From the NCBI GenBank assembly GCA_003230015.1, contig QIGO01000189.1, positions 1-50,931 on the forward strand: DNA of 50,931 nucleotides. The letters are read 5' to 3'. Shown here one piece after another: positions 14,359-49,108 of the stretch. This DNA is from Alphaproteobacteria bacterium (GTDB taxonomy: Bacteria > Pseudomonadota > Alphaproteobacteria > UBA6615). The first letter of the stretch is position 1, and each line of letters starts with the position of its first letter. A program made the translations under genes and the position numbers. The notes under the pieces are model-generated. The model was not told the DNA's origin, searched no databases, and was given only the letters and a program-made list of their open reading frames with translations.

Positions 14359-14362
14359 TGAC

Positions 14363-30716: not shown

Positions 30717-31469
30717 CTAAGGCCTCCAGGGAAGAAGGATATTTAGGAGTGAAACGTTGGAGAGGCTGTGACGTTCAGACGCGAGTAACGCGTCCCAGTC
30801 CTGCGACCGTGCGTCGCCGGTACCGATATAGCGTCGCAACCGCAATTCGGCGGCGTGGTCTACAAGGATCATGATACCGCCGGGCCCGGGTAGTCCCGTA
30901 ATCGACAGGGGAACGAGTAGGAGCACGACAATGAGCAATACCAAACTGAAGCCCGGATTGTGTAGTGCCAGGAGCAGGCAAGACTTCAGGGTCGCGGAAA
31001 TATCACCTCGGTTGCGCGAGATCAGCGCAAAGAAAAATAACGACACTTGAACCCACACCGCCAAGACCCAAATGGCAACGAGCAAGGCGGCGCCTCCCAA
31101 GGCATCGCCACTCGAGCGAGCCGCCGTGGCCCCCAGCACCAGAAATGAAACCAAGCCCACGCTTGAGAAGGCCCAAAGCGTTGCTGGAAGCCAAACTTGT
31201 GCCAGCAAGGTTAGGAACCGACCCAGTCCGATTTCCTCGCGGCGAACGATGTCCCGGAGAAGACCGGCGTAGATAGCAAAGATTACAGCAAGAATGGCAG
31301 CAACCACGCCAAGGCTTGCCACGCCGAGGATGACGTTTTGAACCCCTATCCAAATTGCGCCAAAAACGGCAAGAATGGAGGCGATCGAGAAGAGAATATT
31401 GCCTAAGAAAACCACGAAGATGTTTTCCCATAGGCTCAATGCCGATCGTTTTAGAACAATGCCGATCAC
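30717..31469 (-). CDS. Integral membrane protein, possibly DUF624/YesL-like
   Basis: The 250-residue protein has about five to six hydrophobic segments (around 17-45, 50-75, 85-115, 125-150 and 170-195) and a hydrophilic C-terminal tail of about 45 residues. YesL-type proteins of similar size accompany CUT1 importers in several bacteria, so I suggest that family with low certainty. It overlaps the ATPase stop by 4 bp and ends the transporter operon, so it probably assists that importer. Confidence 0.6.
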   Translation of the reverse strand: MIGIVLKRSALSLWENIFVVFLGNILFSIASILAVFGAIWIGVQNVILGVASLGVVAAILAVIFAIYAGLLRDIVRREEIGLGRFLTLLAQVWLPATLWAFSSVGLVSFLVLGATAARSSGDALGGAALLVAIWVLAVWVQVSLFFFALISRNRGDISATLKSCLLLALHNPGFSLVLLIVVLLLVPLSITGLPGPGGIMILVDHAAELRLRRYIGTGDARSQDWDALLASERHSLSNVSLLNILLPWRP

Positions 31470-32587
31470 GTCCGTTCACCTGCAATTGCGCTTTGCCCCT
31501 GTCCACGCTGGATGACCTTGCCCGCGTGATCGAAAAAGTGAACATTGTCGGCGTCAAAATCCGCGAAGGCCGGCGTGCCGCGTGGCAAAGCGGCGTCGTT
31601 GTCGGCACCGAGTACCGTGAGCTCCCCAAAAGGCACGGTGAAATAACGGTAACTGCGGTCGCCAAGATGTTCTGTGCCGAGCAGCTCAAACGGATCGATG
31701 CGCACTGCGACGGCACCCGCATGTGCTCCGATTCTGACATGTTCGGGCCGAACCCCCAGGACTTTCGGCTCCCCAACAACCTTATAAGGGAGCGTAAGAA
31801 GCTCTCCGCCGGTCAATATAATCTTCGTTGATTCGTTCCCCAACTCCGCCCGCTCCACTGCAAGAAAGTTCATCGCCGGCGTCCCGACGAAGCCCGCGAC
31901 GAACCTGTTGGTCGGGCGCTGATAGACCGCTAAGGGCGCGCCCACTTGTTCGATGATGCCATCGTGCATGACCACGACCCGGTCAGCCAGCGTCATTGCC
32001 TCGACTTGATCGTGGGTGACGAATACCATTGTTGCGTTGAGTTTCCGCTGCAGGCGCGCGATCTCCAGACGCATCTTACCGCGGAGCTCGGCATCGAGGT
32101 TGCTGAGCGGTTCGTCGAATAGATACACTTTAGGCTGGCGTATCATGGCACGCCCCATGGCGACTCGCTGGCGCTGCCCGCCAGATAGGTCGCGCGGCAA
32201 CCGATCCAGCAACTCGTCCAACTGCAAGATTCTTGCCGCCTCACGCACCTTCCTATCGATGGTGGCTTTGTCCTTGCCTGCCATTTTTAGAGGGAATGCG
32301 ATATTCTTATAGACTGTTTGATGGGGGTACAGGGCGTAGTTTTGAAACACCATTGCGCACCCTCTTTGCGAGGCGTCTGTATCGTTGATATATTCTCCGT
32401 CGATGTAGATATCGCCGTCCGTCACATCCTCCAGGCCGGCAATCATCCGCAGCAGTGTGGACTTACCGCAGCCAGATGGCCCAAGAAGAACCGTTAGTTC
32501 TCCGGAATTGATTTCAAGATCAATCCCATGGACGACCTCCGTCCGCCCAAACGACTTCCGCACTTTATTGAATGAGACCTGTGCCAT
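31466..32587 (-). CDS. CUT1 ABC transporter ATP-binding protein (UgpC/MalK-like)
   Basis: The 373-residue ATPase has Walker A GPSGCGKST, Q-loop MVFQNYALYPHQ, signature LSGGQRQRV and Walker B VYLFDEPLSNLDAE. A TOBE regulatory tail follows, with LGVRPEHVRIG and NVHFFD. It serves the two permeases encoded just upstream (five bases apart) and the binding protein at 34640. Confidence 0.92.
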   Translation of the reverse strand: MAQVSFNKVRKSFGRTEVVHGIDLEINSGELTVLLGPSGCGKSTLLRMIAGLEDVTDGDIYIDGEYINDTDASQRGCAMVFQNYALYPHQTVYKNIAFPLKMAGKDKATIDRKVREAARILQLDELLDRLPRDLSGGQRQRVAMGRAMIRQPKVYLFDEPLSNLDAELRGKMRLEIARLQRKLNATMVFVTHDQVEAMTLADRVVVMHDGIIEQVGAPLAVYQRPTNRFVAGFVGTPAMNFLAVERAELGNESTKIILTGGELLTLPYKVVGEPKVLGVRPEHVRIGAHAGAVAVRIDPFELLGTEHLGDRSYRYFTVPFGELTVLGADNDAALPRGTPAFADFDADNVHFFDHAGKVIQRGQGQSAIAGERT

Positions 32588-32592
32588 AACAA

Positions 32593-33597
32593 TTACCCTT
32601 TGACTGCACCGGCCATGGCGGAACGGATAAAGAGTTTCTGAAAAATGAAATACACCACAAGTATCGGAATAAGTGACATGAGTACGCCTGAAAACACCGC
32701 TTCAAAATTTCGCCCATAGGCGCCGCCGAGGGTGGCGACAAAGGCGGGTAGCGTGTATTTTTCAGGTGACAAGAACAGAAGCCCTAAAAGGAGGTCATTC
32801 CAGAACAAGGGCATCATGATCGAAGCGAATATGGCAAAAGGTGTCCCCATCAAGGGCAGCAAAATGTACCAAAAATAGTGGTAGTGCTTACCGCCGTCCA
32901 TCGCCACGGACTCCCGCAGAGACTTGGGGATTGCCGCGATGTACGTCGTAAACACCATGGTCGAGAGGGCGCCGCCCTTTATATGGAGAAGTACAATTGC
33001 AAAATAGCTGTCTTGTAATCCTAGGAATTGCGTAACGATAAAATACTGCGGCAGTATCACCATCATTGGCGGAACAATCATGTTCAGTAAATACGAGTTA
33101 TAGACAAACAAATGCCATGGACGGCGAAAGCCGGCCAACGCCGTCCCAGTCATGATCCCGAGAAATCCACCTATGGCGACGGACGAACCGGCGACGACGA
33201 TTGTGCCCCAGAGTGATTTCAGAAACCCGTTGCTAAGAACGACGAAGATTCCGTTATACTGGATGAACGGCCGCAAATATTCCTCAAGTTCTCCCGCATC
33301 TATGCCTTGGCGCTCGGCCAACTGTTGCAATGTCAACCGAGGGTCGATGTAGCCCTTGAGGCCAAAATCCTTTTTCAGTTTGGTAATGTCGATGTTGTTT
33401 ACGCTGGCGAGGTTGCCGAGCCGCGCATTCATTTGCACTTCGGGGCGTTCGGGTATCCAGAAATAGAATTCTCCCGATTTCAAGGTGGGCGTGAATGAGC
33501 GAATGACAAGGAAGTAGAATGGCACCAAGCTGATCGCGCAATAGAAGGCAAGAATAGCGGCGATCGACAGGTTTTTGAGGCGTTTTTTGCGTTCCAT
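32593..33597 (-). CDS. CUT1 ABC transporter permease, with an unusual extracytoplasmic insertion
   Basis: This MalG-type permease of 334 residues is about 55 longer than its relatives. The EAA loop is KSLRESVAMDGGKHYHYFWY. Between the first and second membrane segments lies a hydrophilic stretch of roughly 80 residues (about 40-118) that includes DITKLKKDFGLKGYIDPRLT and AERQGIDAGELEEYLRPF and probably faces the periplasm. It may contact the binding protein. It follows its partner permease gene by one base. Confidence 0.9.
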   Translation of the reverse strand: MERKKRLKNLSIAAILAFYCAISLVPFYFLVIRSFTPTLKSGEFYFWIPERPEVQMNARLGNLASVNNIDITKLKKDFGLKGYIDPRLTLQQLAERQGIDAGELEEYLRPFIQYNGIFVVLSNGFLKSLWGTIVVAGSSVAIGGFLGIMTGTALAGFRRPWHLFVYNSYLLNMIVPPMMVILPQYFIVTQFLGLQDSYFAIVLLHIKGGALSTMVFTTYIAAIPKSLRESVAMDGGKHYHYFWYILLPLMGTPFAIFASIMMPLFWNDLLLGLLFLSPEKYTLPAFVATLGGAYGRNFEAVFSGVLMSLIPILVVYFIFQKLFIRSAMAGAVKG

Positions 33598-33598
33598 G

Positions 33599-34597
33599 TC
33601 AATGATACTGCATTTTTTTCTGCAGCTTGTTCAAATAGAAGGCGACGGAGACGAGAGGCAAAAACACGACGAGAGATACCGCGATGCCTTGCGCCAAAGT
33701 GCCGGTCTTTGCACCGAAATTTTGAGACGTGGCGAAACCGAGCTCATATATGAGAATTGAAAGAAATCGTGCATCGGTGTTGCCGGCCAGACCACCGAGA
33801 CCGACAAGTTCGTCAAATATTCCAAAACCGCCTATCAGCGCGAAGATCGTCGCGATGATGATGCTTGGCCGCATTTGCGGGATATAGACATAAGCGACCC
33901 GCTTGACATAGTTGGCGCCGTCCATCTTCGCAGATTCTATGGTTTCCCGGGGAATGGATAGAAGGCCGCCGAGAAACAGCGCCATGTTAAACCCGGCCGT
34001 CTTCCAGCCGTAAATGACCGGTAGGCCAAATACGCTTGCGGCCTCGCCGCGAACGTCGAAAGTGTTTTTTCCGAGACCTAACGCCTGGATCGCCAGGTTC
34101 GCCGTGCCGGTGTCGCGGGTGAACAACATGATCATGAGAAGGCCGATACCGACGCCCGAAACCATCCACGGCATGTATATGATTGTAAAGAAGGCTCCCT
34201 TGAATTTCGACGAAAGCTCGTACATGGCGAGAGCCAGAAGAAAACCGAAGGCAAAAACCATAATATAGTTGACGAGGGTAAACAGCGCTGTACGACGCAG
34301 TGTCGCAAAGAAGATATCGCGCATCGGTTCCTGGAATAGTGAAACGATGTTCCTCATGCCGACAACGTCTATGTCCCGATCCAGGAAATCGATTTGGTCC
34401 GTGAACACGATTGGCAACGCCACAACGAACGGCACGACCAGCAGGCCGATGTAGAGCGCGTATTGTGGGCCCGCGTACAGCAGATCGACGAGAAATTCGC
34501 GGAAAAGCCGTGATCGCTTGGCTCGCTTCTTGGTGCGTGCGCTGGGGAGAAGCCGGCGCCCCTCCCCAACGTCTTGAACTACCTGCTGTGTAGGCAT
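33599..34597 (-). CDS. CUT1 ABC transporter permease (MalF/UgpA-like)
   Basis: The 332-residue permease has six or more hydrophobic segments and the EAA loop RETIESAKMDGANYVKRVAY. A basic N-terminal tail (ARTKKRAKRSR) precedes the first membrane segment. It pairs with the 32593 permease and is 42 bp downstream of the binding-protein gene. Confidence 0.9.
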   Translation of the reverse strand: MPTQQVVQDVGEGRRLLPSARTKKRAKRSRLFREFLVDLLYAGPQYALYIGLLVVPFVVALPIVFTDQIDFLDRDIDVVGMRNIVSLFQEPMRDIFFATLRRTALFTLVNYIMVFAFGFLLALAMYELSSKFKGAFFTIIYMPWMVSGVGIGLLMIMLFTRDTGTANLAIQALGLGKNTFDVRGEAASVFGLPVIYGWKTAGFNMALFLGGLLSIPRETIESAKMDGANYVKRVAYVYIPQMRPSIIIATIFALIGGFGIFDELVGLGGLAGNTDARFLSILIYELGFATSQNFGAKTGTLAQGIAVSLVVFLPLVSVAFYLNKLQKKMQYH

Positions 34598-34639
34598 GCG
34601 ACTTGTATCAACACGTCCAACCTCGGCAGTAGCTTGGCA

Positions 34640-35995
34640 TTATCCGGCTTGGTATGCCCGTTCCCAGCGTTTCTGCAGAATGGCCAGCGTATCTTCTAGC
34701 GTCGTCCGGCCTTCCAGATAGTCGGCATAGATCTCGGCCATCTGATTGTCCTGCAATGGCCGCGGTGTACCGCTGATGCGCATCCTTTCCGCCGCGCAGC
34801 GCCCGCACAGACTGTAGTCGAATTTGGCACCTCCATAGACCTGGCCGTCAAGGACAGGCTTGATGACCTTGACATACTGGTCGTTGGTCAGGTCGGCGCC
34901 ACCGACTGAACTCAGATCCATTGCCGGGACAAATCCGATCGCCTCGGACCGCAGTTTAACGGTCGCCGGGCTGTTCCACCAATTGAAGAGTTTGACGGCC
35001 TCGGCGAATTCGGGATCATCTTGCCTCTGCGCATAGAGAACCGAGCCATAGTCGCTTGTGACCTCGGGTCCCCAGATCTTACCGTCGCGGTTCGGTGGCC
35101 AGAAGAAACCGTCGAGTTGGGCGTCGGCGTCGACCGCCTGTACTTTGTCGAACAGCCACGGGCCATGGAAAGTCAAGATGGACCGGCGGGAGATAAAGCT
35201 GGCTTCGAACTCCTGTTCCCAATTCCGGGTCCACCAGCGCTCCGGCATATAGCCTTTGTCGTAAAACTCCTTCAGTGTGCGGAAATACTTGGTCATTGGG
35301 TTCTTATCGACGTCATCCCAGCGAATCTTGCCCGTGTAAAGGTCGCGGATTTCCTGCTTGGTCGCGCCAAGGCCCACCGACCACACCTCTGGATTGAAAC
35401 GGCCCCAGGCTCCCGGAAGCCAGCCGGCGTCGATGACGTATTCAATATCAGGGTTGCCATCAACATAGACCTTCAAGTCCGCCAGGAACTGCATGAAGTC
35501 ATCCAGATTTTGGATGCTCTTTGGATCCAACCCTGCTTTCTCCATTTCATCGGCGTAGTAGATGAAGCTACGGAACGGATTGGTGCGAACGTTCAGTGCT
35601 GGCTGAACGCCGTCGATACCGGTGACCCCCTCGAACGCCCCGGCGCCATCGTAGGACAGCGCGCCAAAATTCTCGATGTCGTCCCGTTCAAGCAGGTTCA
35701 CATAGGTCTTGTAGTTGTCGGCGTCGGGATAAACGAGGTCGCGAATATAGGGCGCGCCGCCGGCGGCGATTCGGGCCTCGAATGCCGCTTCGGTGTCCTC
35801 ATTCACGGACGATAGGTTGATCGTGACGTTCGGGTTCTCTTCCTCATAGAGGTCAAGTATGCCCCGAAACTGGGCCGAGTATTCGCCTTCGGTGACTACG
35901 AATGTGAGTTCGACAGGCTGCTGGCCGAGTGCCGGCAAACTTGCCATGACACTTGCCAGCAGGCCGCCGACGATCAGAATGGGAATAGACTTCAT
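34640..35995 (-). CDS. CUT1 ABC transporter substrate-binding protein
   Basis: This solute-binding protein family 1 member has 451 residues and a Sec signal peptide ending near ASLPALGQ (about residue 25). The region FVVTEGEYSAQFRGILDLY is the usual start of the first lobe. It heads the importer operon read toward 30717. The AT-rich motif at 36055-36070 lies about 60 bp upstream of its start. Confidence 0.9.
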   Translation of the reverse strand: MKSIPILIVGGLLASVMASLPALGQQPVELTFVVTEGEYSAQFRGILDLYEEENPNVTINLSSVNEDTEAAFEARIAAGGAPYIRDLVYPDADNYKTYVNLLERDDIENFGALSYDGAGAFEGVTGIDGVQPALNVRTNPFRSFIYYADEMEKAGLDPKSIQNLDDFMQFLADLKVYVDGNPDIEYVIDAGWLPGAWGRFNPEVWSVGLGATKQEIRDLYTGKIRWDDVDKNPMTKYFRTLKEFYDKGYMPERWWTRNWEQEFEASFISRRSILTFHGPWLFDKVQAVDADAQLDGFFWPPNRDGKIWGPEVTSDYGSVLYAQRQDDPEFAEAVKLFNWWNSPATVKLRSEAIGFVPAMDLSSVGGADLTNDQYVKVIKPVLDGQVYGGAKFDYSLCGRCAAERMRISGTPRPLQDNQMAEIYADYLEGRTTLEDTLAILQKRWERAYQAG

Positions 35996-36054
35996 TTGCG
36001 CGTTCTCCCAGTAAACTAGCGTGCCAACCCTCTTTGCCGGGGTCTTGCATGATT

Positions 36055-36070
36055 CATATATAGGTTTATA
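36055..36070. promoter_or_regulatory. AT-rich motif A, candidate regulator site
   Basis: The complement reads TATAAACCTATATATG. Its core AACCTATATA matches AAGCTATATA at 37049-37058 and in the complement at 38726-38735. It lies about 60 bp upstream of the binding-protein gene. Confidence 0.4.
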
Positions 36071-36183
36071 GCATTATACTCTCGGAACGCACAAGGCCGG
36101 GCCAAGCGCATCAATGCGGCGGCGGCATCCGGACACACCATGTTTGACGCGTCGGGTTGCGCGTTGGCGCGCCGGTTTGTTTG

Positions 36184-37020
36184 TTATGCGACGCGACCCG
36201 TGACTTGACGAAAAAACGGCTCGGCTACTTTTAGGAATGCGTTCGGATCCTCCCAGAGGACCATTGCGTTGAGCCGCGACAGTGTGACCAGACGGGCATT
36301 GGGGATTTTTCGCGCCACCGCCTTGGCCATCTCTGCGGTCGGTCCGGCATTCCAGCGGTTGCGTCCAAACGCCACCAGGAGAGTAGGCGCCTCGATCCGG
36401 CCGAATTCCGCCGTCGTTAGCCATTCCCGCTGGATTGCGCGATCCCATTTCATCATTGTTTCAGCGTCAAGTTTTAGGAACGGATCATGGCTCGCACGCG
36501 CGATGGCCAGCCGCTCGACCTCTTCGAAATGGTCGTCGACAAACTCTGCGCTCATCGTGGACATGAACCAGTAGAACGCATAAAGCTCTCGGTCCGGCTG
36601 CTCAAACATCACGCGGCGAAACGCCAGGAATTTCTCGGTAACCCGCATGTCCTGACCTGAGTGAAAAGGTCCCACCGCAGTGCAAGAAAGTACACGCTCC
36701 GGGTATTCGACGGCGCACCGTAAGGCAATGTGGGATCCGCCGACCCACCCCAGAATATGAAACTGCTTGGCATTCAGCGCCTCCGCCACCTCGACGCAGG
36801 CTTTGGCGAATGAACCGAACATGGCCTTTGGCCGGTCCAGCACGCTATCTTTGGGCAGAGGGAGGCCGACGGCCGCCAGACTGAAGGCCTCTGCCAGCCT
36901 AGGCCAGATTCTGTCCCAGACATGGCTGCCGGGTTGTGCCATCCGGACCAGAAGCATTAGAGGTTTGCCCGGCTGTAGCGAGTAGGCTACCTCCGTGTCG
37001 CCGAGCTTCAATATTTGCAT
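36184..37020 (-). CDS. Alpha/beta-hydrolase-fold protein lacking the catalytic triad
   Basis: The 278-residue protein aligns along its length with alpha/beta hydrolases (HILGWVGGSHIALR, EYPERV, APTLLVAFGRNRW, LWEDPNAF). Nucleophile position 93, normally Ser in G-x-S-x-G, is Val (GWVGG). The acid position in FGRNRW is not Asp. The expected G-H before the EDP motif is N251-A252. All three triad residues are therefore missing. It could be a binding or regulatory pseudoenzyme, or act by another mechanism. It is divergent from the GntR gene and upstream of the importer genes, so it is probably part of that regulon. Confidence 0.8.
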   Translation of the reverse strand: MQILKLGDTEVAYSLQPGKPLMLLVRMAQPGSHVWDRIWPRLAEAFSLAAVGLPLPKDSVLDRPKAMFGSFAKACVEVAEALNAKQFHILGWVGGSHIALRCAVEYPERVLSCTAVGPFHSGQDMRVTEKFLAFRRVMFEQPDRELYAFYWFMSTMSAEFVDDHFEEVERLAIARASHDPFLKLDAETMMKWDRAIQREWLTTAEFGRIEAPTLLVAFGRNRWNAGPTAEMAKAVARKIPNARLVTLSRLNAMVLWEDPNAFLKVAEPFFRQVTGRVA

Positions 37021-37048
37021 GTAATACCGACCCCTCTCCCTTAATATG

Positions 37049-37060
37049 AAGCTATATATG
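37049..37060. promoter_or_regulatory. AT-rich motif B, candidate regulator site
   Basis: AAGCTATATATG lies between the divergent pseudo-hydrolase and GntR genes. It shares AAGCTATATA with motif C and AAsCTATATATG with motif A, and would be a natural place for GntR autoregulation. Confidence 0.45.
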
Positions 37061-37126
37061 TCTTAAAGGGGATGGATTTGTGTTAGATATGGATGGTGAA
37101 ATCTTCGTGGTGGCAAGGGATAACCC

Positions 37127-37885
37127 ATGAGTTCGACGGGCGAGTTGTTTACGCGATTGTTCGACCAGCAGACAACGTCTGGTGCGCCGAAATATTTCGC
37201 ACTTCGCGGTGCGATCTTGAAGATGATCGAACAGAAACATTGGCAGGTTGGCGACAAGCTTCCGCCTGAGCAGGCCATGACAAAGCTGACCGGAATCAGT
37301 CTGGGAACCGTTCAGAAGGCACTTGGTTCGCTGGCCGATGACGGTTTGCTTTTTCGCGAGCAGGGTCGAGGCACGTTCGTCGCATCGCCCGAGATGCAGC
37401 TGCGCGACCCATGGCATTTTCGCTTTCTCAACGAGGCAGGGGACGCCCTGTTGCCGGTCTACACACGGGCCTTGTCGTGCGAACTCACCGCCGATACCGG
37501 TCCGTGGTCCAGCTTTCTTGGCGAAGACCAGGACGAGTTCGTCCGGATAACGCGTTTGCTGGACGTTAATCGCGAGTTCCGTTGTTACAACCTCTTTTAT
37601 CTTGGTGCGCGGTTGTTCGGCCCGCTGGCGAAGAAATCGCTCGCCAAGCTGCATGGCCGAAACATCAAGCACATTCTGGCGGATGAGTTTGGGGTCGAAA
37701 CACGGCACGTCACCCACCGGCTTCGCGCCGGTCGCTTCGATGCTAAAATACGCGAAATCATCAACTGCCCACGCGGTACGACAGGCTTGATTCTTGAGAT
37801 TTACGGCCAAACGCACAGGCGGAAGCCGTTATACTTCCAACGCACGTTCATTCCACCTTCCGAGCGCTGGTTGGCGGCGTCATAG
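37127..37885 (+). CDS. GntR family (HutC/UTRA subfamily) transcriptional regulator
   Basis: This regulator has 252 residues: a winged helix (about 20-88; LPPEQAMTKLTGISLGTVQK) and a C-terminal UTRA ligand domain (about 105-245) ending in HRRKPLYFQRTFIPP. UTRA regulators bind sugar phosphates, amino acids or similar effectors. It sits between two divergent promoter regions that share an AT-rich motif. Its 3' end overlaps the convergent aldolase gene by 38 bp. Confidence 0.9.
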   Translation: MSSTGELFTRLFDQQTTSGAPKYFALRGAILKMIEQKHWQVGDKLPPEQAMTKLTGISLGTVQKALGSLADDGLLFREQGRGTFVASPEMQLRDPWHFRFLNEAGDALLPVYTRALSCELTADTGPWSSFLGEDQDEFVRITRLLDVNREFRCYNLFYLGARLFGPLAKKSLAKLHGRNIKHILADEFGVETRHVTHRLRAGRFDAKIREIINCPRGTTGLILEIYGQTHRRKPLYFQRTFIPPSERWLAAS

Positions 37886-38651
37886 CAGCACGCGACCGAA
37901 CAAGCCCGTCGCGAAGCGCGTTGAAGAGCAGCTTAACATCTGCCGAGTAGGATAACAGGGTAAAGCCAGCCTCGCCCGCTGCCGCCGCGGCCTCGGCGTC
38001 ACCAACCAGCCGGCCGGCGGCTTTGCCGGAAGACCGTGCGGCCTCCACAACGTCCGCCACGGCAGTTTTAAAAGTAGAAGTATCAAACTCCCCCGGCCGG
38101 CCAAGCGACGCGCTAAGGTCTGCGTGGCCGAGCCAAACACAGTCCACGCCCTGGACTGACGCGATGGACTTCGCGTTCTTGACGCCGTCAACCGTCTCGA
38201 TCTGAGCAAACACGGCGGTTTCGAGGTTCGCCCGACTTAAGTTCTCGACCATTGCTATGGAACGGTAACGATCGTGTCCGATCTGTTGCGCAATTCCTCT
38301 TGCCCCTGCCGGGTGGTACTTTGCGGAGTGGACAATTTCGGCTGCTGCCGCTTCGGAGCCGACCATGGGAACCATGATCGCGTCCGCGCCGACATCGAGC
38401 GCCCGGCCAATATGCTCGCCGGGTGCTGGAATTCGAACGACGCACGCCAGATCGGCGGCCTCGAAATACCTCACAACACGCTTCAGCTCACCATAGTCCA
38501 ACCCACTATGTTCCATGTCGACAATGGCGAAGTCGCAACCCGCCTGCCGAAGAATATGACCGATCCCCGGCGTAAAAAACTCGAAAATCAAGGTGCCTAT
38601 CAGCGGTTTGGATCTATTCGTGACGCGGCTGCGGAAGCTTTCTTTCAACAC
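37848..38651 (-). CDS. HpcH/HpaI family class II aldolase
   Basis: This 267-residue TIM-barrel aldolase has VDMEHSGLDY with the catalytic histidine, VVRIPAPG with the substrate-binding arginine, a GARGI loop, the metal glutamate in FAQIETVDGV and the metal aspartate in GHADLSASLG. The family cleaves 2-keto-3-deoxy sugar acids or 4-hydroxy-2-oxoacids to pyruvate and an aldehyde. The start appears to be GTG 38651. It is divergent from the aconitase X genes, whose dehydrated product it could cleave. Confidence 0.9.
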   Translation of the reverse strand: MLKESFRSRVTNRSKPLIGTLIFEFFTPGIGHILRQAGCDFAIVDMEHSGLDYGELKRVVRYFEAADLACVVRIPAPGEHIGRALDVGADAIMVPMVGSEAAAAEIVHSAKYHPAGARGIAQQIGHDRYRSIAMVENLSRANLETAVFAQIETVDGVKNAKSIASVQGVDCVWLGHADLSASLGRPGEFDTSTFKTAVADVVEAARSSGKAAGRLVGDAEAAAAAGEAGFTLLSYSADVKLLFNALRDGLVRSRAAMTPPTSARKVE

Positions 38652-38722
38652 TGGTCTTTATCATCCCTAATCGGCTGGCGGCCCCTTTGACACGCAAATG
38701 TTGCTCTTGCAGGGTTGATAAT

Positions 38723-38737
38723 AACTATATAGCTTAA
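38723..38737. promoter_or_regulatory. AT-rich motif C, candidate regulator site
   Basis: AACTATATAGCTTAA, complement TTAAGCTATATAGTT, lies in the 117-bp gap between the divergent aldolase and aconitase X genes. It shares AAGCTATATA with motif B. Confidence 0.45.
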
Positions 38738-38768
38738 CAGGAAAATCGTCCAGGGCTTCGATGGATAT

Positions 38769-40019
38769 TTGGGCTTGAAGTATACTGACCAAGAGAAAGC
38801 AATCTTGCAGGGTGAGGGCGGCGAGCCGAGGAGGTGGGCGCTCGAGCAGCAAATTGCCGTGGGCGAGTTCTTTGACGCTGAGGATTTCGTCGAAGTTACG
38901 CAGGTGCACTTATGCGCTGATACGGAGGCGCTTGGCGCCAGCGGCGTTCAGTTTGTCGAGAATATTGCCGGTACCAAAATTGGGGGCCGCGTTTGTGTGC
39001 CGTCGATCACCGACCCTCGCGGCGCCGATTTTGCCCAAATAAATGCCATAAACCACGATCCGGATATAGTTGCCTTGGAGCGGCGGCTCTCGGCAGCGTT
39101 GTCATCAATCGGCTTTCTTATGACAAACACTTGCATTAACTACCAGTACGTCCTGCCGCCGGCTCGCGGAGAGCATCTCGCATTTGGCGATACCGGGTCT
39201 GTCATATATGCAAACGGTGTCGCCGGGGCGTATTCGAACTATGAGGGCGGGCCGGCAGCATTGGCAGCGGCGCTGACGGGCCGCGTGCCGCGCTACGGTT
39301 TTCATCTTTCCAGTAAGCGAACGGGCACCCAACTATACCGGCTGACAGGGGACCTCGGCACCTATAGTGACTGGGGGGCGGTTGGCGGGTTAATTGGCAG
39401 GGATATGGAATCCTACTGGGATGTGCCCGTTATCATCTCCAAACGACGGCCGCGATCCGACGAGTTGAAGCATCTCGGCGCGGCACTTGCCAGTTATGGC
39501 TCCACGGGCATGTTTCATTTTGTCGGAGTAACCCCGGAAGCGCCGACGATCGAGGCTGCCTTCGCCGGATTGCCGGTACCGGCCGGCCGCACGATTGGAT
39601 CGGCCGACATTCGATCGTTTTACGAGGCCTTTCATACGTCGAAGCAAGAATTGGATGTCGTCGTCTTCGCGGCCCCCCAGCTGTCGCTGTTCGAGTTGGG
39701 TGAACTGGCAGCAATGCTGGACGGCAGGCAGTTGCATGACGGTACGGCGCTGCTGGTTGCGGTACCCAAAGCGGTCAAAGTGATCGCCGACGAAAATGGC
39801 TTGACCCAGGCCGTCGAGGGGGCCGGCGGGATCGTCCTGGAGGGTGTTTGCTTTTATCAGATGCATGCCCGCGAGCTCGCCCGCGCCAACGGCTGGCGCA
39901 CACTCATGACCAACTCCGCAAAACTCGTGAACATCATTTCCGGGTATGGCTATGAGCCTGTTCTCGGATCGATGCGGCAATGTGTCGCCTCCGCCCTCGC
40001 CGGCCGGTTTTTGCGATGA
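38769..40019 (+). CDS. Aconitase X catalytic (large) subunit
   Basis: The 416-residue protein matches the aconitase X catalytic domain. It has GEHLAFGDTGSVIYANGVAG with NYEGGPAALAAALTG after it (134-171) and LMTNSAKLVNI (379-389). It has cysteines at C122 (TNTCINY), C361 (GVCFY) and C405 (RQCV), the expected iron or iron-sulfur ligands. Characterised AcnX proteins are dehydratases, for example of cis-3-hydroxy-L-proline in bacteria and mevalonate 5-phosphate in archaea. No proline genes are nearby, so a hydroxy or sugar acid is more likely here (inference). The start is TTG 38769 with no clear ribosome-binding site. Confidence 0.88.
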   Translation: MGLKYTDQEKAILQGEGGEPRRWALEQQIAVGEFFDAEDFVEVTQVHLCADTEALGASGVQFVENIAGTKIGGRVCVPSITDPRGADFAQINAINHDPDIVALERRLSAALSSIGFLMTNTCINYQYVLPPARGEHLAFGDTGSVIYANGVAGAYSNYEGGPAALAAALTGRVPRYGFHLSSKRTGTQLYRLTGDLGTYSDWGAVGGLIGRDMESYWDVPVIISKRRPRSDELKHLGAALASYGSTGMFHFVGVTPEAPTIEAAFAGLPVPAGRTIGSADIRSFYEAFHTSKQELDVVVFAAPQLSLFELGELAAMLDGRQLHDGTALLVAVPKAVKVIADENGLTQAVEGAGGIVLEGVCFYQMHARELARANGWRTLMTNSAKLVNIISGYGYEPVLGSMRQCVASALAGRFLR

Positions 40020-40489
40020 ATGAATCCAAATTTCGGGCGATGGCGGCCATGGGGCCAACCGTTGCGGGCGTGGCATTAGTCGCCTCTGATGATTTCAGCG
40101 CCCGCTACGATCTTGATCTCGCGCGTGGCGTCTTCTCACGTCCGGGTCATTCGCTCTTTGGGCGGAGTTACGTGGATCGCATCCTTGTGCTGAACGCCGC
40201 GAAAGGCGGCGTCGCGACGTCTTGGATGCTCCGAGACATGGTGATGCGGGGGCGCGCGCCGCTGGCGCTCTTGTTGAACTTCGCCAATCCGATCATGGCC
40301 CAGGCCGCGGCTTTTGCCGAGGTTTCGTTCATGAGCGGTTTTCCGGTGGACATCACGTCCGCCATCGCTTCAGGCGACCATATTGAACTTTCACCGGCGA
40401 CACGGGAGTTGACGATCGTCTCGCGAGGAGCAGACGAGGGGCCGGATTTCTCGTCAATGGAAGCCGCGCTGATTGAATCACGTAACTAG
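40016..40489 (+). CDS. Aconitase X swivel (small, DUF126) subunit
   Basis: This 157-residue protein matches the DUF126 swivelling domain that closes over the AcnX active site. Landmarks are PTVAGVALVASDDFSARYDL, the glycine-rich loop AAKGGVATSWMLRDM and FPVDITSAIASGDHIEL. ATG 40016 overlaps the large-subunit stop by ATGA, as expected for two subunits of one enzyme. In many AcnX proteins the two parts are fused; here they are separate. Confidence 0.9.
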   Translation: MNESKFRAMAAMGPTVAGVALVASDDFSARYDLDLARGVFSRPGHSLFGRSYVDRILVLNAAKGGVATSWMLRDMVMRGRAPLALLLNFANPIMAQAAAFAEVSFMSGFPVDITSAIASGDHIELSPATRELTIVSRGADEGPDFSSMEAALIESRN

Positions 40490-40516
40490 GGACGGTTGGC
40501 GCCAAATCGCTGACGA

Positions 40517-41314
40517 CTAGTCGCGGCCAAGTTGATCGGACTCAGCGAACCGGTAGGCAGACTCAACCAACTTTAGCGTTTCAAGGTTGTCAGGCAGAGA
40601 AGTTTCGAATTCGTGTCCGCTCCTAAGGCAGTTGACGAAATGCGAGATCGCGCCGAAATAGCCCTCTTGAATGGCCGCACCCGGATCATACCGATGCTGT
40701 TTGGGGAGAGCGCCCAACAATTGCACCGTATCGCCATCGCAGATAATTGCGCCGTGGTCACCAAGCAACTCGAAACGATCCGACACAACGGGTGGAAAAC
40801 CTTGTACTGCCATATTTATTTCAAGCACGACCGGAACGCCCTCTGCTGCCTCAAACACTAGCGTTGCGGCTGTTTCGCCGGGAAGATCCGGCTGTGTCCT
40901 GGCAAGCCAACCCTGTATTCTTCGATAGTGGGGCCGAAACCGCCAATTCTCATGCACCATCAGACGGAACCCAGGCCCGATATTGGCAGCGAGCGCGAGT
41001 GCTTCGGCGAGACTAGGGGCGAGCGGCTTTTGGCAGAGTGTCGGCGTTCTCGCTGCGTACGCCTTTCTAACGAGGTCTGTATGGGTTTCCCGTGGCGTCG
41101 CTATGTCGAGCGCGTCAGGGGCCTCATGGAGCAACATCTCTTCAATCGTTGCGTAGGCGGCGGGCACATCGAACTTCGCAGCCTGCTGCCACGCCCGCTC
41201 GATGTTCGGGTCGCATATTGCGACGACTGATGCGTTTGCGACCCGGCGCCACGCCGCGAGATGAAACCCGCTGACGAACCCTGCACCAGCTAGACCCACA
41301 CGTAGTTGGTTCAT
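40517..41314 (-). CDS. Gfo/Idh/MocA family oxidoreductase
   Basis: This NAD(P)-dependent oxidoreductase has the Rossmann motif GLAGAGFVSGFHLAAW and the conserved lysine in CQKPLAPSLAEA (the usual EKP is QKP). At 265 residues from ATG 41314 it is shorter than the usual 330-380, mostly in the C-terminal domain. The family oxidises sugars, inositols or their acids. It converges on the aconitase X genes and probably belongs to the same pathway. Confidence 0.85.
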   Translation of the reverse strand: MNQLRVGLAGAGFVSGFHLAAWRRVANASVVAICDPNIERAWQQAAKFDVPAAYATIEEMLLHEAPDALDIATPRETHTDLVRKAYAARTPTLCQKPLAPSLAEALALAANIGPGFRLMVHENWRFRPHYRRIQGWLARTQPDLPGETAATLVFEAAEGVPVVLEINMAVQGFPPVVSDRFELLGDHGAIICDGDTVQLLGALPKQHRYDPGAAIQEGYFGAISHFVNCLRSGHEFETSLPDNLETLKLVESAYRFAESDQLGRD

Positions 41315-41348
41315 CGTTCGGCCTCTGCCGCGGCGCGCATTCCTAGGC

Positions 41349-41705
41349 CTAGCCAGCGAACTCTGCCGCGGGCTGCGGCAGTTCAACTAGGTTGTCGATC
41401 GGTTGCTGTCGATAAAATCGATCAATGTTGCGGAAGATCGTTCGCATCTTCAGTTGGAACGCGTCCCGAGCGCCGGCGGCAAAATGCGGTGTGACGACGA
41501 CGTTGGGCAAGTCAAGAATGGCATTGTTCGCGTGCGGTGGTTCAACCTCGAATACGTCCAAACCGGCACCGCCCAAATGCCCACTCTCGAGGGCTGTATG
41601 GAGGGCTTTTTCATCGATGAGGAGGCCGCGGGCAGTATTGATGAGGATTGCTCCTCGCTTCATCATTTGGACGGTCCTTGCGTTGATCTGGAAATTCAGC
41701 CCCAA
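41349..41705 (-). pseudogene. Truncated D-2-hydroxyacid dehydrogenase (C-terminal third)
   Basis: The 118-residue remnant begins within the coenzyme domain (VQMMKRGAILINTARG) and keeps the catalytic arginine, the glutamate in LDVFEVEP and the histidine in VVTPHFAAG. The N-terminal half is missing; the sequence switches near 41705-41720 to a WYL-regulator tail on the opposite strand. It lies 34 bp upstream of the Gfo/Idh gene on the same strand, so an intact pair may once have existed. Confidence 0.8.
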
Positions 41706-41714
41706 AGCCGCCAG

Positions 41715-41922
41715 CCACGCCGCTCGCTTTCGATTTCACCCGGGGCAAGAGAACGAGGAGCTAAAGGATGGTTCGCTCGTGGTGCGTTTCAAGGCCTGCG
41801 GGCATCTCGAAATGTGCTGGCATCTCTACACCTGGGGTGACCAAGTTGAGATCCTTGGTCCAAGGGTTCTCGCTGACATGGTGGCCGGTTTTCGACGGGG
41901 TGATTTTCCGGCTTTGCCGTGA
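41715..41922 (+). pseudogene. C-terminal fragment of a WYL-domain regulator
   Basis: The frame shows RFRFHPGQENEELKDGSLVV followed by RFKACGHLEMCWHLYTWGDQ and VEILGPRVLADMVA, ending at TGA 41920-41922. This matches the C-terminal WCX end of WYL transcription factors (HPSQ..EEL.DGSL, then a WGP..EVLEP-type motif). The helix-turn-helix and WYL core are absent, cut off at the junction with the dehydrogenase relic. Confidence 0.65.
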
Positions 41923-42153
41923 TCCGTCGGCCAGGACGGTTTGGACGTCCCTATGTGGCGCGTCGAGTGCGCCAGAAATGAGATGTTGCTCGTCCAGGCT
42001 AGGCGGACGTCCTTGACGAAAATTCTGACGGTCACGTTAGACTTGGCCAACACGGTGCCCCACTTTCACGGAGCTGATGGTGGGTCTGAGCGGTATTGTG
42101 CAGCAACTGAAATGAGGCCAGTTTCTGATGTTATTTACCTCGGCTCTAAATCA

Positions 42154-42699
42154 ATGATCTTGTGGACAATTCAGACAGAGGCGGCAGTCATGCATTTGGA
42201 GTGCACGGGTGTTCTGCGCGGCGACGGGCGGCGTATATGGCGGGAACATCGCCGCGCTTACCAGTGGATGATCGGACAAATGAAAGAACGGCTAAAGCCG
42301 CCTCTGACCGGAAGCCATTACCCAGTATGGGCATGGAAGATTTTCAGCGCGCATGCCCCAAGGCCGGATTTGCGCTTCAGCGCTCACCTGCCGGCTGGGA
42401 CCAGAGGAGCGCGGATTGAGTTCGAAGTGTCCGAGCAGCGAGTTCTCCTATCCGACTTCGAACGCTGGCATTTTGTGCTTTCCGCCCAGTTTTTGGCCGA
42501 CGACGAACCGGAGGATCAGGCGGTGGACCATTTGCCATTGAGCGTGGGTCGAGTTGAAGCGAGTTGGGCTCGTATCTTTGAACTCGAACGTGGTGATCCC
42601 GCCTACCATGGGACGCTGTCAGATCGTCAAGTTCAGGCTACGCTCTGGCACGTCAAGCAGAGTGAGGTCCGTGCCCTAACTTGGTTCACGGCGCGGTAA
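42154..42699 (+). CDS. DUF3841 domain-containing protein
   Basis: This 181-residue soluble protein opens MILWTIQTEAAVMHLECTG and has RAYQWMIGQMKERL, YPVWAWKIF and PDLRF, which fit the DUF3841 family. The function is unknown. I start at ATG 42154 because the family motif begins there; an upstream in-frame ATG at 41941 adds an unrelated extension. It stands alone between mobile-element scars. Confidence 0.75.
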   Translation: MILWTIQTEAAVMHLECTGVLRGDGRRIWREHRRAYQWMIGQMKERLKPPLTGSHYPVWAWKIFSAHAPRPDLRFSAHLPAGTRGARIEFEVSEQRVLLSDFERWHFVLSAQFLADDEPEDQAVDHLPLSVGRVEASWARIFELERGDPAYHGTLSDRQVQATLWHVKQSEVRALTWFTAR

Positions 42700-42713: not shown

Positions 42714-43195
42714 TTAGCGGCATGTGCAACTTGTTTGGAAGGACGGCAAGAAAGACCCAAGGGCGCTGTCACGTTTCCGCTTGACCAGGCCATGGCGGTC
42801 GAGGACCGCATGAACCGTGCTCTTGGCGGGAATACGTAGATCGCCGGCAAGGCGGCGTACCAGCAGCTCGCGGATCTTCCTGGCGCCCCAATGGGGCTTC
42901 TCCCGCTTGAGGCGCACGATCATGTGCTCAAGCTGCTCAGGCAGCTGATTGGCATAACGCACCGGGCGCCGGGAGCGGTCGCACAGGGCCTCCAGACCCT
43001 GTTCCTTGTAACGATCGTAGATCTTATAGCCGGTCTTGCGCGATATGCCGAAACACCGGCACACCTCGCTCATGCCCTCGCCATCGAAAAGGCGGGCGAC
43101 AAACCGAAGACGCTCTTCCATCACCGAACTCTCCTTCCACGGCATCAACACCTCCCGCCAAATGGCGAAAAGTGTTACCCATGTGTCCGGTACAA
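42714..43195 (-). pseudogene. IS481-type transposase fragment with one element end
   Basis: The frame (42714-43151) begins MLMPWKESSVMEERLRFVAR and has a helix-turn-helix (SEVCRCFGISRKTGYKIYDR) and KPHWGARKIRELL, typical of IS481 transposase N-termini. It ends at STVHAVLDRHGLVKRKR and the DDE catalytic domain is missing. TGTTACCCATGTGTCCGGTACA just upstream of the gene (43173-43194) resembles IS481 terminal sequence. The element is non-autonomous. Confidence 0.75.
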
Positions 43196-43401
43196 AGCGT
43201 CACCTATTTGATATTGCTGTGCTTATTTGACTTTGTGGTACATGGGGACTGTTCACGTAGTTTCCCCAGGTTAGGACGTCAGTGGATCTCGGCTGCGGCT
43301 TGCTGAGACCCGTGTGGTGCCGCAAACCCGTTGCCGATAGGGGCAAAGTCTCTTACGGCGATTTCGGTGGTGCCCAAACGGGGTGCTGTGGATCTCTGTC
43401 T
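43196..43401. other. Intergenic stretch between IS481 and IS6 relics; no gene recognised
   Basis: About 200 bases with no recognisable protein or RNA gene. Flanking mobile-element ends suggest it is older flanking DNA trapped between insertions. Confidence 0.35.
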
Positions 43402-44211
43402 GGGGCTGTGTCAGACCAAATCGGCTTGAAGCTGGCGTGGCTCTCGCCTAGCGTCGGCGAATGAAGAAACCGTTCCGGTATTTCAACAGTTCACCCGAGG
43501 TGATCCGCCTCACGGTGCTGATGTACATCCGCTATCCGCTGTCGCTGCGCCAGGTCGAGGATCTGCTGCATGAGCGTGGCATCGATATCTGCCATGAGAC
43601 GGTGCGTTTCTGGTGGAACCGGTTCGGTCCGATGTTTTCCGCCGAGATACGGAAACGGCGGGTTCATCATCAATCGTATTCGAACTGGCGCTGGCACCTG
43701 GACGAGGTAATCGTGTGGATCAACGGTGAGACCCACTACCTCTGGCGTGCAGTTGATCACGAAGGCGAGGTCCTTGAGGTAATGGCCACGAAACGGCGGG
43801 ATCGTAAGGCTGCGCTCAAGTTCCTGAAGCGCACGATGAAGAGATACGGGCGACCGTGTTTGGTCGTGACGGACCGACTTCGGTCGTATCGAGCGGCGAT
43901 GAAGGTGCTCGGCAATGCTACGAGTCAGATTTGCGGTCGTTGGCTCAACAACCGGGTGGAAAACTCACACCAGCCGTTCTGACGACGAGAGGGAGCGATG
44001 GCGAAATTCCGGCAGATCAAGACCCTCCAGAAATTCGCCACTGTTCACGCCTCGATCTGTAACCATTTCAAGCGGGAACGCCACCTCAACCGCCGCGACG
44101 TTTTCAAACGAAACCGCTCCGCTGCCCTGGCCGAATGGCGTCGGCTGGCGGCCTGAAAACCCCATTGACTGACTCATTCGAGGCCGATTCGAATTAGACT
44201 GACACTGCCCC
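43402..44211. mobile_element. IS6-family element with intact inverted repeats and a disrupted transposase
   Basis: The 810-bp element is bounded by 43402-43423 (GGGGCTGTGTCAGACCAAATCG) and the complement of 44190-44211 (GGGGCAGTGTCAGTCTAATTCG), matching at 18 of 22 positions. No 8-bp target duplication is visible, consistent with later rearrangement. It lies 47 bp from the end of the CUT2 permease gene. Confidence 0.8.
43461..44156 (+). pseudogene. IS6 family transposase interrupted by a premature stop
   Basis: The frame opens MKKPFRYFNSSPEVIRLTVL and keeps the catalytic aspartates (WHLDEVIV, VVTDRLRSYR) and glutamate (NNRVENSHQPF). A TGA at 43980-43982 follows; the next codons continue in the same frame as RREGAMAKFRQIKTLQKFA to a final stop at 44154-44156. 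In intact relatives an arginine (CGA) occupies the stop position, so a single C-to-T change explains it. The final 57 or so residues are lost unless the stop is read through. Confidence 0.88.
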
Positions 44212-44258: not shown

Positions 44259-45245
44259 TTATGCAATTTCTTCGACACGGATTTTGCGCCGCCCCAACGT
44301 ATCAAGGATAGAGGTGCGAAGGCCGTCGATCAGCACAGCGAGGAAAATGATCACTGCCGTCACGAGCGGGTAGATGTAGGGCGTGGCGTTGGTCATGACC
44401 AGGCCGCTCTGGACGGTTTGTATGAGGACCGCGCCGAAAACCGTGCCGACAACGCCGCCACGTCCACCGAAAAGGCTGGTGCCGCCAAGCACCGCCGCGG
44501 CAATGACGGGAAACTCGATTTGAAAGCCGAACGTTGATGACGCGGCGGCAACCTGGGCGATGGAAACGAGTCCGCCGACGGCGGCGAGGAAACCGCAAAT
44601 GCAATAGACGGAAAATAGGATACGCGGCACATTGATACCGGCTTTGGCCGCTGCTGTCGGGTCCTGGCCGACCGCGTAGATTTGTCGCCCAAACGGCGTT
44701 TCGCGTAGCACTATCCACGCGATGACGAACACGACCGCAAAAACCCAGATCGCCCAGGGAACACCGAAGTAGCTGGTTCGGCCCAGTGACATCACGCTCT
44801 CTTCGACGAAGACCATGCGTGTATCGGTCAGGAAAATAGCGGCTCCGCGCAGGATAAACAGAGTTGCGAGCGTCACGATAAAGGGATGCTGGCCGCGCAA
44901 CTTTATCACGAAATAGCCGTTCATCGCGCCAAGCGCGACGCCGATCAACCCGACCAGCGGGAATGCGATGACGACGGGAATGCCACCCAGGAATAGCGCT
45001 AGTACGGCGACCGCAACATACATGATCGCGCCGACCGACAGATCGATTCCGGCTGTCAGCAGGACGAAAGTGATGCCAATCGCCATGATGGCGATGTGGG
45101 AGGACTGGGTTAGGATGTTCATGAAATTCTGGATCGTCAAAAAGCGGTCGGACAAAACGCCAAAGACGACGACCACAGCTAGAAAAGCCACCCACGGTGC
45201 GGCGTTCAACAACAGCAATGTGGTCCTATTTTCGCCCACCTGCAT
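44259..45245 (-). CDS. CUT2 sugar ABC transporter permease (RbsC-like)
   Basis: This 328-residue membrane protein has the signature AIGITFVLLTAGIDLSVGA and the late motif AAAVLGGTSLFGGRGGVVGTV. It is one of two RbsC-type permeases flanking a double-domain ATPase, which may assemble as a heterodimer. It is the last gene of the operon and lies 4 bp after the ATPase. Confidence 0.92.
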   Translation of the reverse strand: MQVGENRTTLLLLNAAPWVAFLAVVVVFGVLSDRFLTIQNFMNILTQSSHIAIMAIGITFVLLTAGIDLSVGAIMYVAVAVLALFLGGIPVVIAFPLVGLIGVALGAMNGYFVIKLRGQHPFIVTLATLFILRGAAIFLTDTRMVFVEESVMSLGRTSYFGVPWAIWVFAVVFVIAWIVLRETPFGRQIYAVGQDPTAAAKAGINVPRILFSVYCICGFLAAVGGLVSIAQVAAASSTFGFQIEFPVIAAAVLGGTSLFGGRGGVVGTVFGAVLIQTVQSGLVMTNATPYIYPLVTAVIIFLAVLIDGLRTSILDTLGRRKIRVEEIA

Positions 45246-45249
45246 CAGA

Positions 45250-47858: not shown

Positions 47859-47891
47859 CGGTCAGCCTAAAGCCGCGGCCGAAGCGACCGC

Positions 47892-48908: not shown

Positions 48909-48927
48909 TTGCTGCTCCTCCTCCTTG

Positions 48928-48942
48928 GTCTGGATACCAGAC
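48928..48942. promoter_or_regulatory. Palindrome 1 in the divergent GntR/importer region
   Basis: GTCTGGATACCAGAC has perfect 6-bp arms (GTCTGG/CCAGAC) around ATA. It lies just upstream of the binding-protein ribosome-binding site and is a candidate operator for the FCD regulator encoded divergently. Confidence 0.5.
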
Positions 48943-48951
48943 TTGTCAAAT

Positions 48952-48962
48952 TGGTCTGACCA
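48952..48962. promoter_or_regulatory. Palindrome 2 in the divergent GntR/importer region
   Basis: TGGTCTGACCA has perfect 5-bp arms (TGGTC/GACCA) around T and resembles the TGGT-x-ACCA type of site used by FCD GntR proteins. Its centre is 22 bp from that of palindrome 1, about two helical turns. Confidence 0.55.
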
Positions 48963-49108
48963 TTCTACGTGTAGTTCATGGCTGGTCAATATGAGAAAAT
49001 GCAGCGGGCCTCGCGCCGACGTCGGGTGCGCGGGGGCTTTTGCATGGGTAATGTGGGGATTGGCCGCTCTAGGTCCATGCCGGCACAAGGATGTAACGAG
49101 AGTTGAAG

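Follow-up and report, generated by a model that had tools for sequence, protein, structure and literature searches.

Two activities of AcnX enzymes are described in the literature that was found, namely the dehydration of cis-3-hydroxy-L-proline (C3LHyp) by the type I enzymes, such as AtAcnX, and of mevalonate 5-phosphate (MVA5P) by the type IIb enzymes, such as TkAcnX, and the other bacterial subclasses have no assigned function. Of these, the subclasses IIc-IIf are described as split into two subunits and as devoid of the residues that are landmarks of either known activity (Watanabe 2021, PMC8184944). Here, a split AcnX gene pair is described that is encoded in a stretch of 50,931 nucleotides of an alphaproteobacterium (QIGO01000189.1, referred to as the window), which is on contig C2 of a genome assembly of 3.07 Mb that is 75% complete. 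The genes of the large (AcnX-L) and small, swivel (AcnX-S) subunits are adjacent, and both proteins score above the curated Pfam cut-offs of the AcnX family. This AcnX has a surprising active site and belongs to a large, uncharacterised bacterial branch, and it lies in a testable regulon, which probably also includes a pyruvate aldolase and a CUT1 importer.

The AcnX pair belongs to a separate clade

A scan of bacterial genomes identified 408 AcnX relatives, the best 80 of which have sequence identities of 51-60%, and the closest relatives of the window AcnX are mostly from Alphaproteobacteria. In a tree of 90 rows, which includes type I C3LHyp dehydratases and TkAcnX and no characterised type IIa sequence, the window AcnX is found inside a clade of 79 nonredundant rows, with a support of 100 in the SH-like approximate likelihood ratio test (SH-aLRT) and with a long stem. 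Neither the type I C3LHyp dehydratases nor TkAcnX fall inside this clade. With a length of 1.56 (median, 0.27), the window branch is the longest of the clade, and the tree program warned of long branches; the clade membership is nevertheless secured independently of this long branch, because the diagnostic residues discussed below are common to the window and the clade. As judged from these sequences, the window protein is the most divergent member of its clade, which probably belongs to one of the types IIc-IIf. A literature search on AcnX, DUF521 and the operator sequence (see below) gave no function for this clade.

The sequence identity of AcnX-L with each of the two solved AcnX enzymes is just below 30%. 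Its structure model (predicted local distance difference test score of 91) superimposes on 7cnr_A with a template modelling (TM) score of 0.92, normalized by target length, and on 7cnp with a TM score of 0.87, and a structure search with this model matches AcnX first and then the aconitases. It is extremely unlikely that the pair has the known C3LHyp or MVA5P dehydratase activity, even though the identity to both solved enzymes is about 30% and the best NCBIfam match is C3LHypDH, since this match is far under the cut-off (186 of 700 bits), the clade is a separate one and the substrate-binding and catalytic residues of both enzymes are replaced. The gene context also argues against it: homologues of the hydroxyproline epimerase and of the trans-3-hydroxy-L-proline dehydratase are absent from all 78 AcnX loci of the clade, no hydroxyproline genes were found around the window AcnX, and the sole gene of the proline racemase family in the window genome is on another contig. 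The AcnX pair is therefore classified, from its sequence, as a member of neither the C3LHyp nor the MVA5P dehydratase group. This is in agreement with the sequence-only reading of the window, which had suggested comparing the large subunit with the hydroxyproline and mevalonate-phosphate clades; it is in neither, as far as the type I rows and TkAcnX represent them.

The active site is rebuilt throughout the clade

The residue roles were taken from PMC8184944 and transferred by an alignment of the window proteins with AtAcnX, TkAcnX and 78 relatives. In AtAcnX numbering, all 78 other rows of the clade have the changes Glu292→Asp, Ser293→Thr, Asn294→Gly, Asn233→Asp, Cys205→Asp, Cys510→Tyr and Tyr534→Ile. 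The position of the third ligand (Ser449 in AtAcnX, Cys283 in TkAcnX) is an alanine in 77 of these rows and also in the window (Ala302). Kept in the clade are Cys273, Cys508 and Lys530; the window AcnX-L retains the Fe-S cysteines Cys122 and Cys361, plus Lys385, and its diagnostic residues are Asp51, Asp82, Asp141, Thr142, Gly143, Ala302, Tyr363 and Ile389. The position of Asp203 of AtAcnX, which contacts the substrate nitrogen, is a methionine in each of the 78 other rows and a cysteine only in the window (Cys49). This Met49→Cys change, at a substrate-discriminating position, is the one active-site change of the window protein within its clade.

The small subunit is changed as well. The general base (Ser70 in AtAcnX, Ser62 in TkAcnX) is a glycine in the window and in all 75 others that have a letter at this position, and the window AcnX consequently does not have the catalytic serine of the published mechanism, so the chemistry of the known AcnX enzymes is not simply transferable to this clade. 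The loss of this residue challenges the accepted mechanism of the superfamily. The position of Trp35 is an arginine in the clade, whose small subunits carry a new motif, FSARYDL, and a serine or threonine three residues after the glycine that replaces the base; in the window, the corresponding motifs are FSARYDLD and KGGVATSW. When the window is compared with the type IIb signature, consisting of the Fe-S ligands Cys110, Cys283 and Cys342 and the phosphate-site residues Gly48, Ser50, Asn53 and Asn79, the replacements Cys283→Ala, Asn79→Asp, Asn53→Ala and Ser50→Thr are seen, and at one further set of AcnX residues the window deviates by having Arg, Ala, Cys, Thr and Thr. Despite the long branch, 106 of 108 near-invariant positions of AcnX-L and 37 of 38 of AcnX-S are retained, suggesting that the window AcnX is constrained rather than decaying.

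Operator-like sites connect AcnX, aldolase and importer

The GntR regulator of the window, which has a UTRA domain, shares 31-41% identity with GntR genes found close to AcnX in 14 loci, and its best plasmid matches are the GntR proteins of the AcnX region of NT-25/NT-26. In relatives with a homologous GntR, the palindrome AGCTATATAGCT occurs as 8 exact copies in 1.34 Mb, where 0.33 are expected, all of them at promoters of AcnX, of GntR or of the transporter gene between them. In the genome of locus L036 (loci are given by L numbers), the only copy in 5.5 Mb is at AcnX, and AcnX is also where all three sites with at most one mismatch are found in the L022 and L068 genomes. The single match in 309 kb of control loci is beside a GntR homologue (L145). 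From this distribution, AGCTATATAGCT is likely the operator of the AcnX-associated GntR.

A 21-bp motif is common to three promoters of the window, before the CUT1 binding-protein gene, between the genes of the hydrolase-like protein and GntR, and between those of the aldolase and AcnX, and its score of 46 was not reached in 200 dinucleotide shuffles, the highest of which scored 42. The divergent genes of the aldolase and AcnX have a promoter region in common, which has the best-matching operator-like site, and no other copy of the derived 21-bp pattern is present in the window genome at up to two mismatches. The homology of the regulator with AcnX-linked GntR proteins, taken together with the common operator-like sites, is what would be expected for a regulon under a UTRA GntR, and as the sites are present in all three promoters, importer, aldolase and AcnX probably form one regulon in this genome. 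The function is testable because the clade is sharply delimited, its unusual active site is invariant, it has a regulator of its own and the operator can be read, so that the genes of the pathway are recognisable by this operator.

It is possible, with a likelihood slightly short of even, that this GntR regulon combines the divergent, rebuilt-site AcnX with the aldolase and the CUT1 importer to act on one acid. Several points weigh against this preferred reading. Site 1, in front of the CUT1 operon, is weak when considered alone, having four mismatches from the palindrome core, and is the least certain of the three; the rarity of the 21-bp pattern elsewhere is partly circular, as it was derived from the window sites; no relative combines AcnX with this aldolase or with a CUT1 importer; and the Gfo/Idh gene and the hydrolase triad both appear broken (see below). 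Two further points come from the partners of AcnX across the clade.

Neighbourhoods across the clade and alternative explanations

The neighbours were tallied by Blast over the 78 nonredundant AcnX loci and by an unbiased Pfam count of the nearest genes. Binding proteins of the tripartite tricarboxylate transporters (TTT) are found in 16 of these loci, subunits like those of succinate dehydrogenase (SDH) in 13-14, a DUF3604-related protein in 14, fumarase in 11, TauE/SafE in 11, DctM of the tripartite ATP-independent periplasmic (TRAP) transporters in 10, TauD in 9 and a UTRA GntR in 9 (nearest-gene count). The usual importers are of the TTT, TRAP and NMT1 types, not CUT1, and the clade-wide partners point to di/tricarboxylates or sulfonates, not to sugars. 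In L070 and L088, the module consists of a TRAP importer and AcnX only, which suggests that the product enters central metabolism directly, without an aldolase. These smallest modules narrow the substrate to an imported acid, from which AcnX may yield a central metabolite in one step.

Two other neighbours recur. The DUF3604-related protein, of 747 residues, is encoded directly upstream of AcnX in L028, L035, L039, L017 and L081. In L067 (7272-8939) and its gammaproteobacterial relatives, a gene for an adenylate/guanylate cyclase domain fused to a 2Fe-2S domain is upstream of AcnX and adjoins an aldo/keto reductase and TauD.

Homologues of the window aldolase are absent from the 86 related AcnX loci searched, and in the 16 AcnX-positive genomes 47 kb is the shortest distance from AcnX to an HpcH/HpaI family member on its contig, some of these contigs being short. 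Of the other genomes among the 385 of the class, 20 contain a close aldolase and 16 the AcnX clade, without overlap; as about one genome would be shared by chance, this is an absence of association, not avoidance. The co-conservation of aldolase and AcnX, and the combination of AcnX, HpcH/HpaI aldolase and CUT1 importer for which the sequence-only reading had suggested a survey of gene neighbourhoods, are thus not borne out, and by that reading's own standard the pathway is weakened as a general one; the combined set is seen in this genome only. The cooperation of import, AcnX and aldolase is plausible here through the common operator-like site, although neither aldolase nor CUT1 importer is a usual partner of the clade.

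It is rather unlikely, but in keeping with these data, that two abutting modules without a common pathway are present, with AcnX and GntR serving an organic acid and the CUT1 importer and aldolase an unrelated sugar acid. Members of the aldolase subfamily are found, without AcnX, on plasmids of Mesorhizobium and Bradyrhizobium and in other loci, where CUT1 importers accompany them along with an NAD(P)-dependent oxidoreductase, and AcnX is found with TTT/TRAP importers and without the aldolase. However, the AcnX-type GntR is between the CUT1 operon and the aldolase, and the operator-like sites extend over all three promoters, the best one being in the divergent promoter of aldolase and AcnX.

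Sulfonate chemistry is a quite improbable alternative, in which the clade would act on sulfonated or sulfated hydroxy acids, eliminating either sulfite, as a C-S lyase in the manner of SuyAB, or water adjacent to the sulfonate. In L021, Xsc is encoded 92 bp upstream of AcnX, and in L060 it is likewise immediately upstream, with Pta and TauE/SafE downstream; TauE and TauD recur as counted above, and sulfatase and SulP are found in some loci. Genes of the ComA family (phosphosulfolactate synthase) are near AcnX in L023, L025, L051 and L075, and that of L145 is beside an operator-like site and a GntR homologue. Xsc is present in 8 of 16 AcnX-positive and in 39 of about 368 AcnX-negative genomes (Fisher p 1.7e-4, not corrected for relatedness). 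Nevertheless, the SDH-like subunits, fumarase and TTT/TRAP importers fit plain polycarboxylates equally well, the families of TauE and TauD are broad, the scores of the ComA-like proteins are under the family cut-off and no Xsc match is found in the window genome at E <= 1e-150. As most AcnX loci are without sulfonate genes, sulfonate chemistry is kept as a rival, not as the preferred reading. The ComA-family genes (L023 9080-9919, L025 7150-7959, L051 7911-8729, L075 12474-13466 and L145 5672-6463) are 49-80% identical.

Gene inventory of the locus

The features are listed in Table 1. The split AcnX, HpcH/HpaI aldolase, UTRA GntR and CUT1 importer named in the sequence-only reading are all real genes, clustered without hydroxyproline genes. 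Of the interval 38769-41314 to which that reading had assigned them, AcnX and Gfo/Idh are inside, whereas aldolase, regulator and importer are outside, at 31466-38651. The importer (solute-binding protein, two permeases and ATPase) spans 31466-35995 on the minus strand. The L and S genes overlap as ATGA at 40016-40019, from which the likely start of S is the ATG at 40016, giving a protein of 157 residues whose translation is predicted to be coupled to that of AcnX-L. Searches for Rfam families and tRNAs across the window found none.

Table 1. Features of the AcnX locus and its surroundings in the window
Feature	Coordinates	Strand	Remarks
CUT1 UgpC-like ATPase	31466..32587	-	open reading frame (ORF); identity to annotated UgpC proteins from two further CUT1 loci, 48-52%
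CUT1 permease 2	32593..33597	-	ORF; tblastn matches to CUT1 permeases
CUT1 permease 1	33599..34597	-	ORF; tblastn matches to CUT1 permeases of other loci
CUT1 solute-binding protein	34640..35995	-	PF13416
Operator-like site 1, TGATTCATATATAGGTTTATA	36050..36070	+	before CUT1 binding-protein gene; weakest; resembles site 2 (16/21)
Alpha/beta-hydrolase-fold (ABH) protein, without Ser/Asp/His triad	36184..37020	-	PF00561; alignment to 6eb3
Operator-like site 2, TAAGACATATATAGCTTCATA	37045..37065	-	between ABH-like gene and GntR; core two mismatches from palindrome
GntR regulator with UTRA domain	37127..37885	+	AcnX-associated type
HpcH/HpaI class II pyruvate aldolase	37848..38651	-	PF03328, 111 bits; divergent from AcnX-L
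Operator-like site 3, TAATAACTATATAGCTTAACA	38719..38739	+	between aldolase and AcnX-L; core AACTATATAGCT one mismatch from palindrome
AcnX large subunit (L)	38769..40019	+	PF04412, 338.9 bits (cut-off 31.5); TTG start at 38769 or 38775
AcnX small (swivel) subunit (S)	about 40016..40489	+	PF01989, 62.5 bits (cut-off 27); matched ORF 39980-40489
Gfo/Idh/MocA oxidoreductase, incomplete	40517..41386	-	about 63 C-terminal-domain residues absent; no operator

The aldolase aligns end to end with the solved structures 4mf4, 3qz6 and 2v5j, as expected for a class II pyruvate aldolase. Its close relatives adjoin other CUT1 importers, without AcnX, and this fits a sugar-acid role. A second HpcH/HpaI aldolase of the window genome (G000, contig C96 3960-4709, L154) is 43% identical and also near a CUT1 permease.

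The alignment of the Gfo/Idh protein to 5uhw is in two parts (chain residues 3-138 and 202-334), and the C-terminal substrate domain of the protein is incomplete. As about 63 residues are absent, it is unlikely to be a working dehydrogenase, and its gene is probably outside the AcnX system. The oxidation by Gfo/Idh that the sequence-only reading had included is therefore doubtful, and the protein was rejected as the oxidising step for its truncation and for the lack of an operator. In the hydrolase-like protein, other residues are found at the esterase Ser, Asp and His positions; a lactonase role was rejected for this reason, and this fold protein, encoded before the importer operon, may be a binding protein.

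The longest branch of the clade, the truncated Gfo/Idh gene, the triad-less hydrolase and the transposase fragments at 42714-43982 could be the marks of a decaying locus that has lost its function. This is very unlikely, since none of the genes of AcnX-L, AcnX-S, aldolase, regulator and importer is shortened or interrupted by a stop, the near-invariant sites are kept and the operator-like sites are retained in the promoters.

The two truncated transposase ORFs adjoin the locus and are IS481/IS3-like (minus strand) and IS6-like (plus strand), named from the sequence only. At 41425-42699, an apparent C-terminal remnant of a WYL-domain regulator, with a broken frame, is followed by a DUF3841-like ORF (translation read by eye). 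The regions 546-28529 and 44259-49151 form an uptake/catabolism island with a TRAP importer, two CUT2-type importers, a thiamine pyrophosphate (TPP) enzyme (11508-13265), a protein of the SBD_N/NBD_C kinase family (14192-15622) and a gene of the inositol-phosphatase family.

Proposed mechanism and comparison with known systems

In the preferred reading of one regulon acting on one acid, the UTRA GntR, which is linked to AcnX genes across Proteobacteria, would control the AcnX heterodimer, the aldolase, the CUT1 importer and the hydrolase-like protein. The importer would take up a small polyhydroxy or carboxylic acid, from which AcnX would eliminate a beta leaving group, most likely water, next to the carboxylate, using the Fe-S cluster (Cys122, Cys361 and perhaps Asp141) as a Lewis acid, plus Lys385. 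Candidates for the base that replaces the usual serine are the tyrosine or aspartate of FSARYDL and the serine or threonine of KGGVA[ST]. The aldolase could then cleave the resulting 4-hydroxy-2-oxo acid into pyruvate and an aldehyde. In the likeliest case, an organic-acid module of AcnX has been reconnected in this lineage with a CUT1 importer and an aldolase, possibly along with a shift in enzyme specificity (Cys49). GntR control, leaving group, substrate and order of the steps are what we infer; the clade, the residues, the operator-like sites and the gene order can be read in the sequence itself. The conversions of tartrate into oxaloacetate or of sulfolactate into pyruvate are only ideas for the AcnX reaction.

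The sugar-acid pathway put forward in the sequence-only reading, in which AcnX would form a 2-keto-3-deoxy acid for the aldolase, is plausible in this genome, as judged from the placement of the AcnX group and the apparent co-regulation, although the co-conservation of the aldolase, CUT1 as a partner of the clade and the Gfo/Idh step did not hold. In its widest form, which is unlikely, the proposal would be that a widespread branch of the aconitase superfamily without the catalytic serine has been rebuilt for a new beta-elimination, of water or even sulfite, on polyanionic hydroxy acids. In this genome, the specificity of the enzyme would have changed (Met49→Cys), and its own regulator would connect it with a sugar importer and a pyruvate aldolase. 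Within an Entner-Doudoroff-like pathway, it would then be a third kind of dehydratase.

Compared with AtAcnX, the fold, two of the three Fe-S cysteines (Cys273 and Cys508) and Lys530 are shared, whereas the base Ser70 and Trp35, Asp203, Glu292, Ser293, Asn294, Cys510 and Tyr534 are replaced; type I AcnX is fused and the window AcnX is split, without hydroxyproline genes. TkAcnX (PDB entry: 7CNR) shares the split into S and L, the fold, Cys110, Cys342 and Lys361, but in the window Cys283 is an alanine, the base Ser62 a glycine, Glu129 an aspartate and Tyr365 an isoleucine, and the context is bacterial and catabolic. With the types IIc-IIf, the window AcnX shares the split architecture and the absence of the landmark residues.

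SuyAB, the 3-sulfolactate sulfo-lyase, belongs to a protein family unrelated to AcnX. It resembles the present system in being a two-subunit lyase with a one-step route to pyruvate, and genes of the sulfite-exporter family are near some AcnX loci. The Entner-Doudoroff-like pathways of sugar acids and sulfosugars share with the window an importer and a PF03328 aldolase under one putative regulator. They differ from the window regulon, in which neither a complete sugar dehydrogenase nor a catalytic lactonase is seen. In the sulfofucose pathway, the dehydratase that accompanies the PF03328 aldolase is from a different family than that of the sulfoquinovose pathway (PMC12421959). Whereas Entner-Doudoroff-like pathways use a dehydratase of the IlvD/EDD or enolase family, in the window this enzyme would be AcnX.

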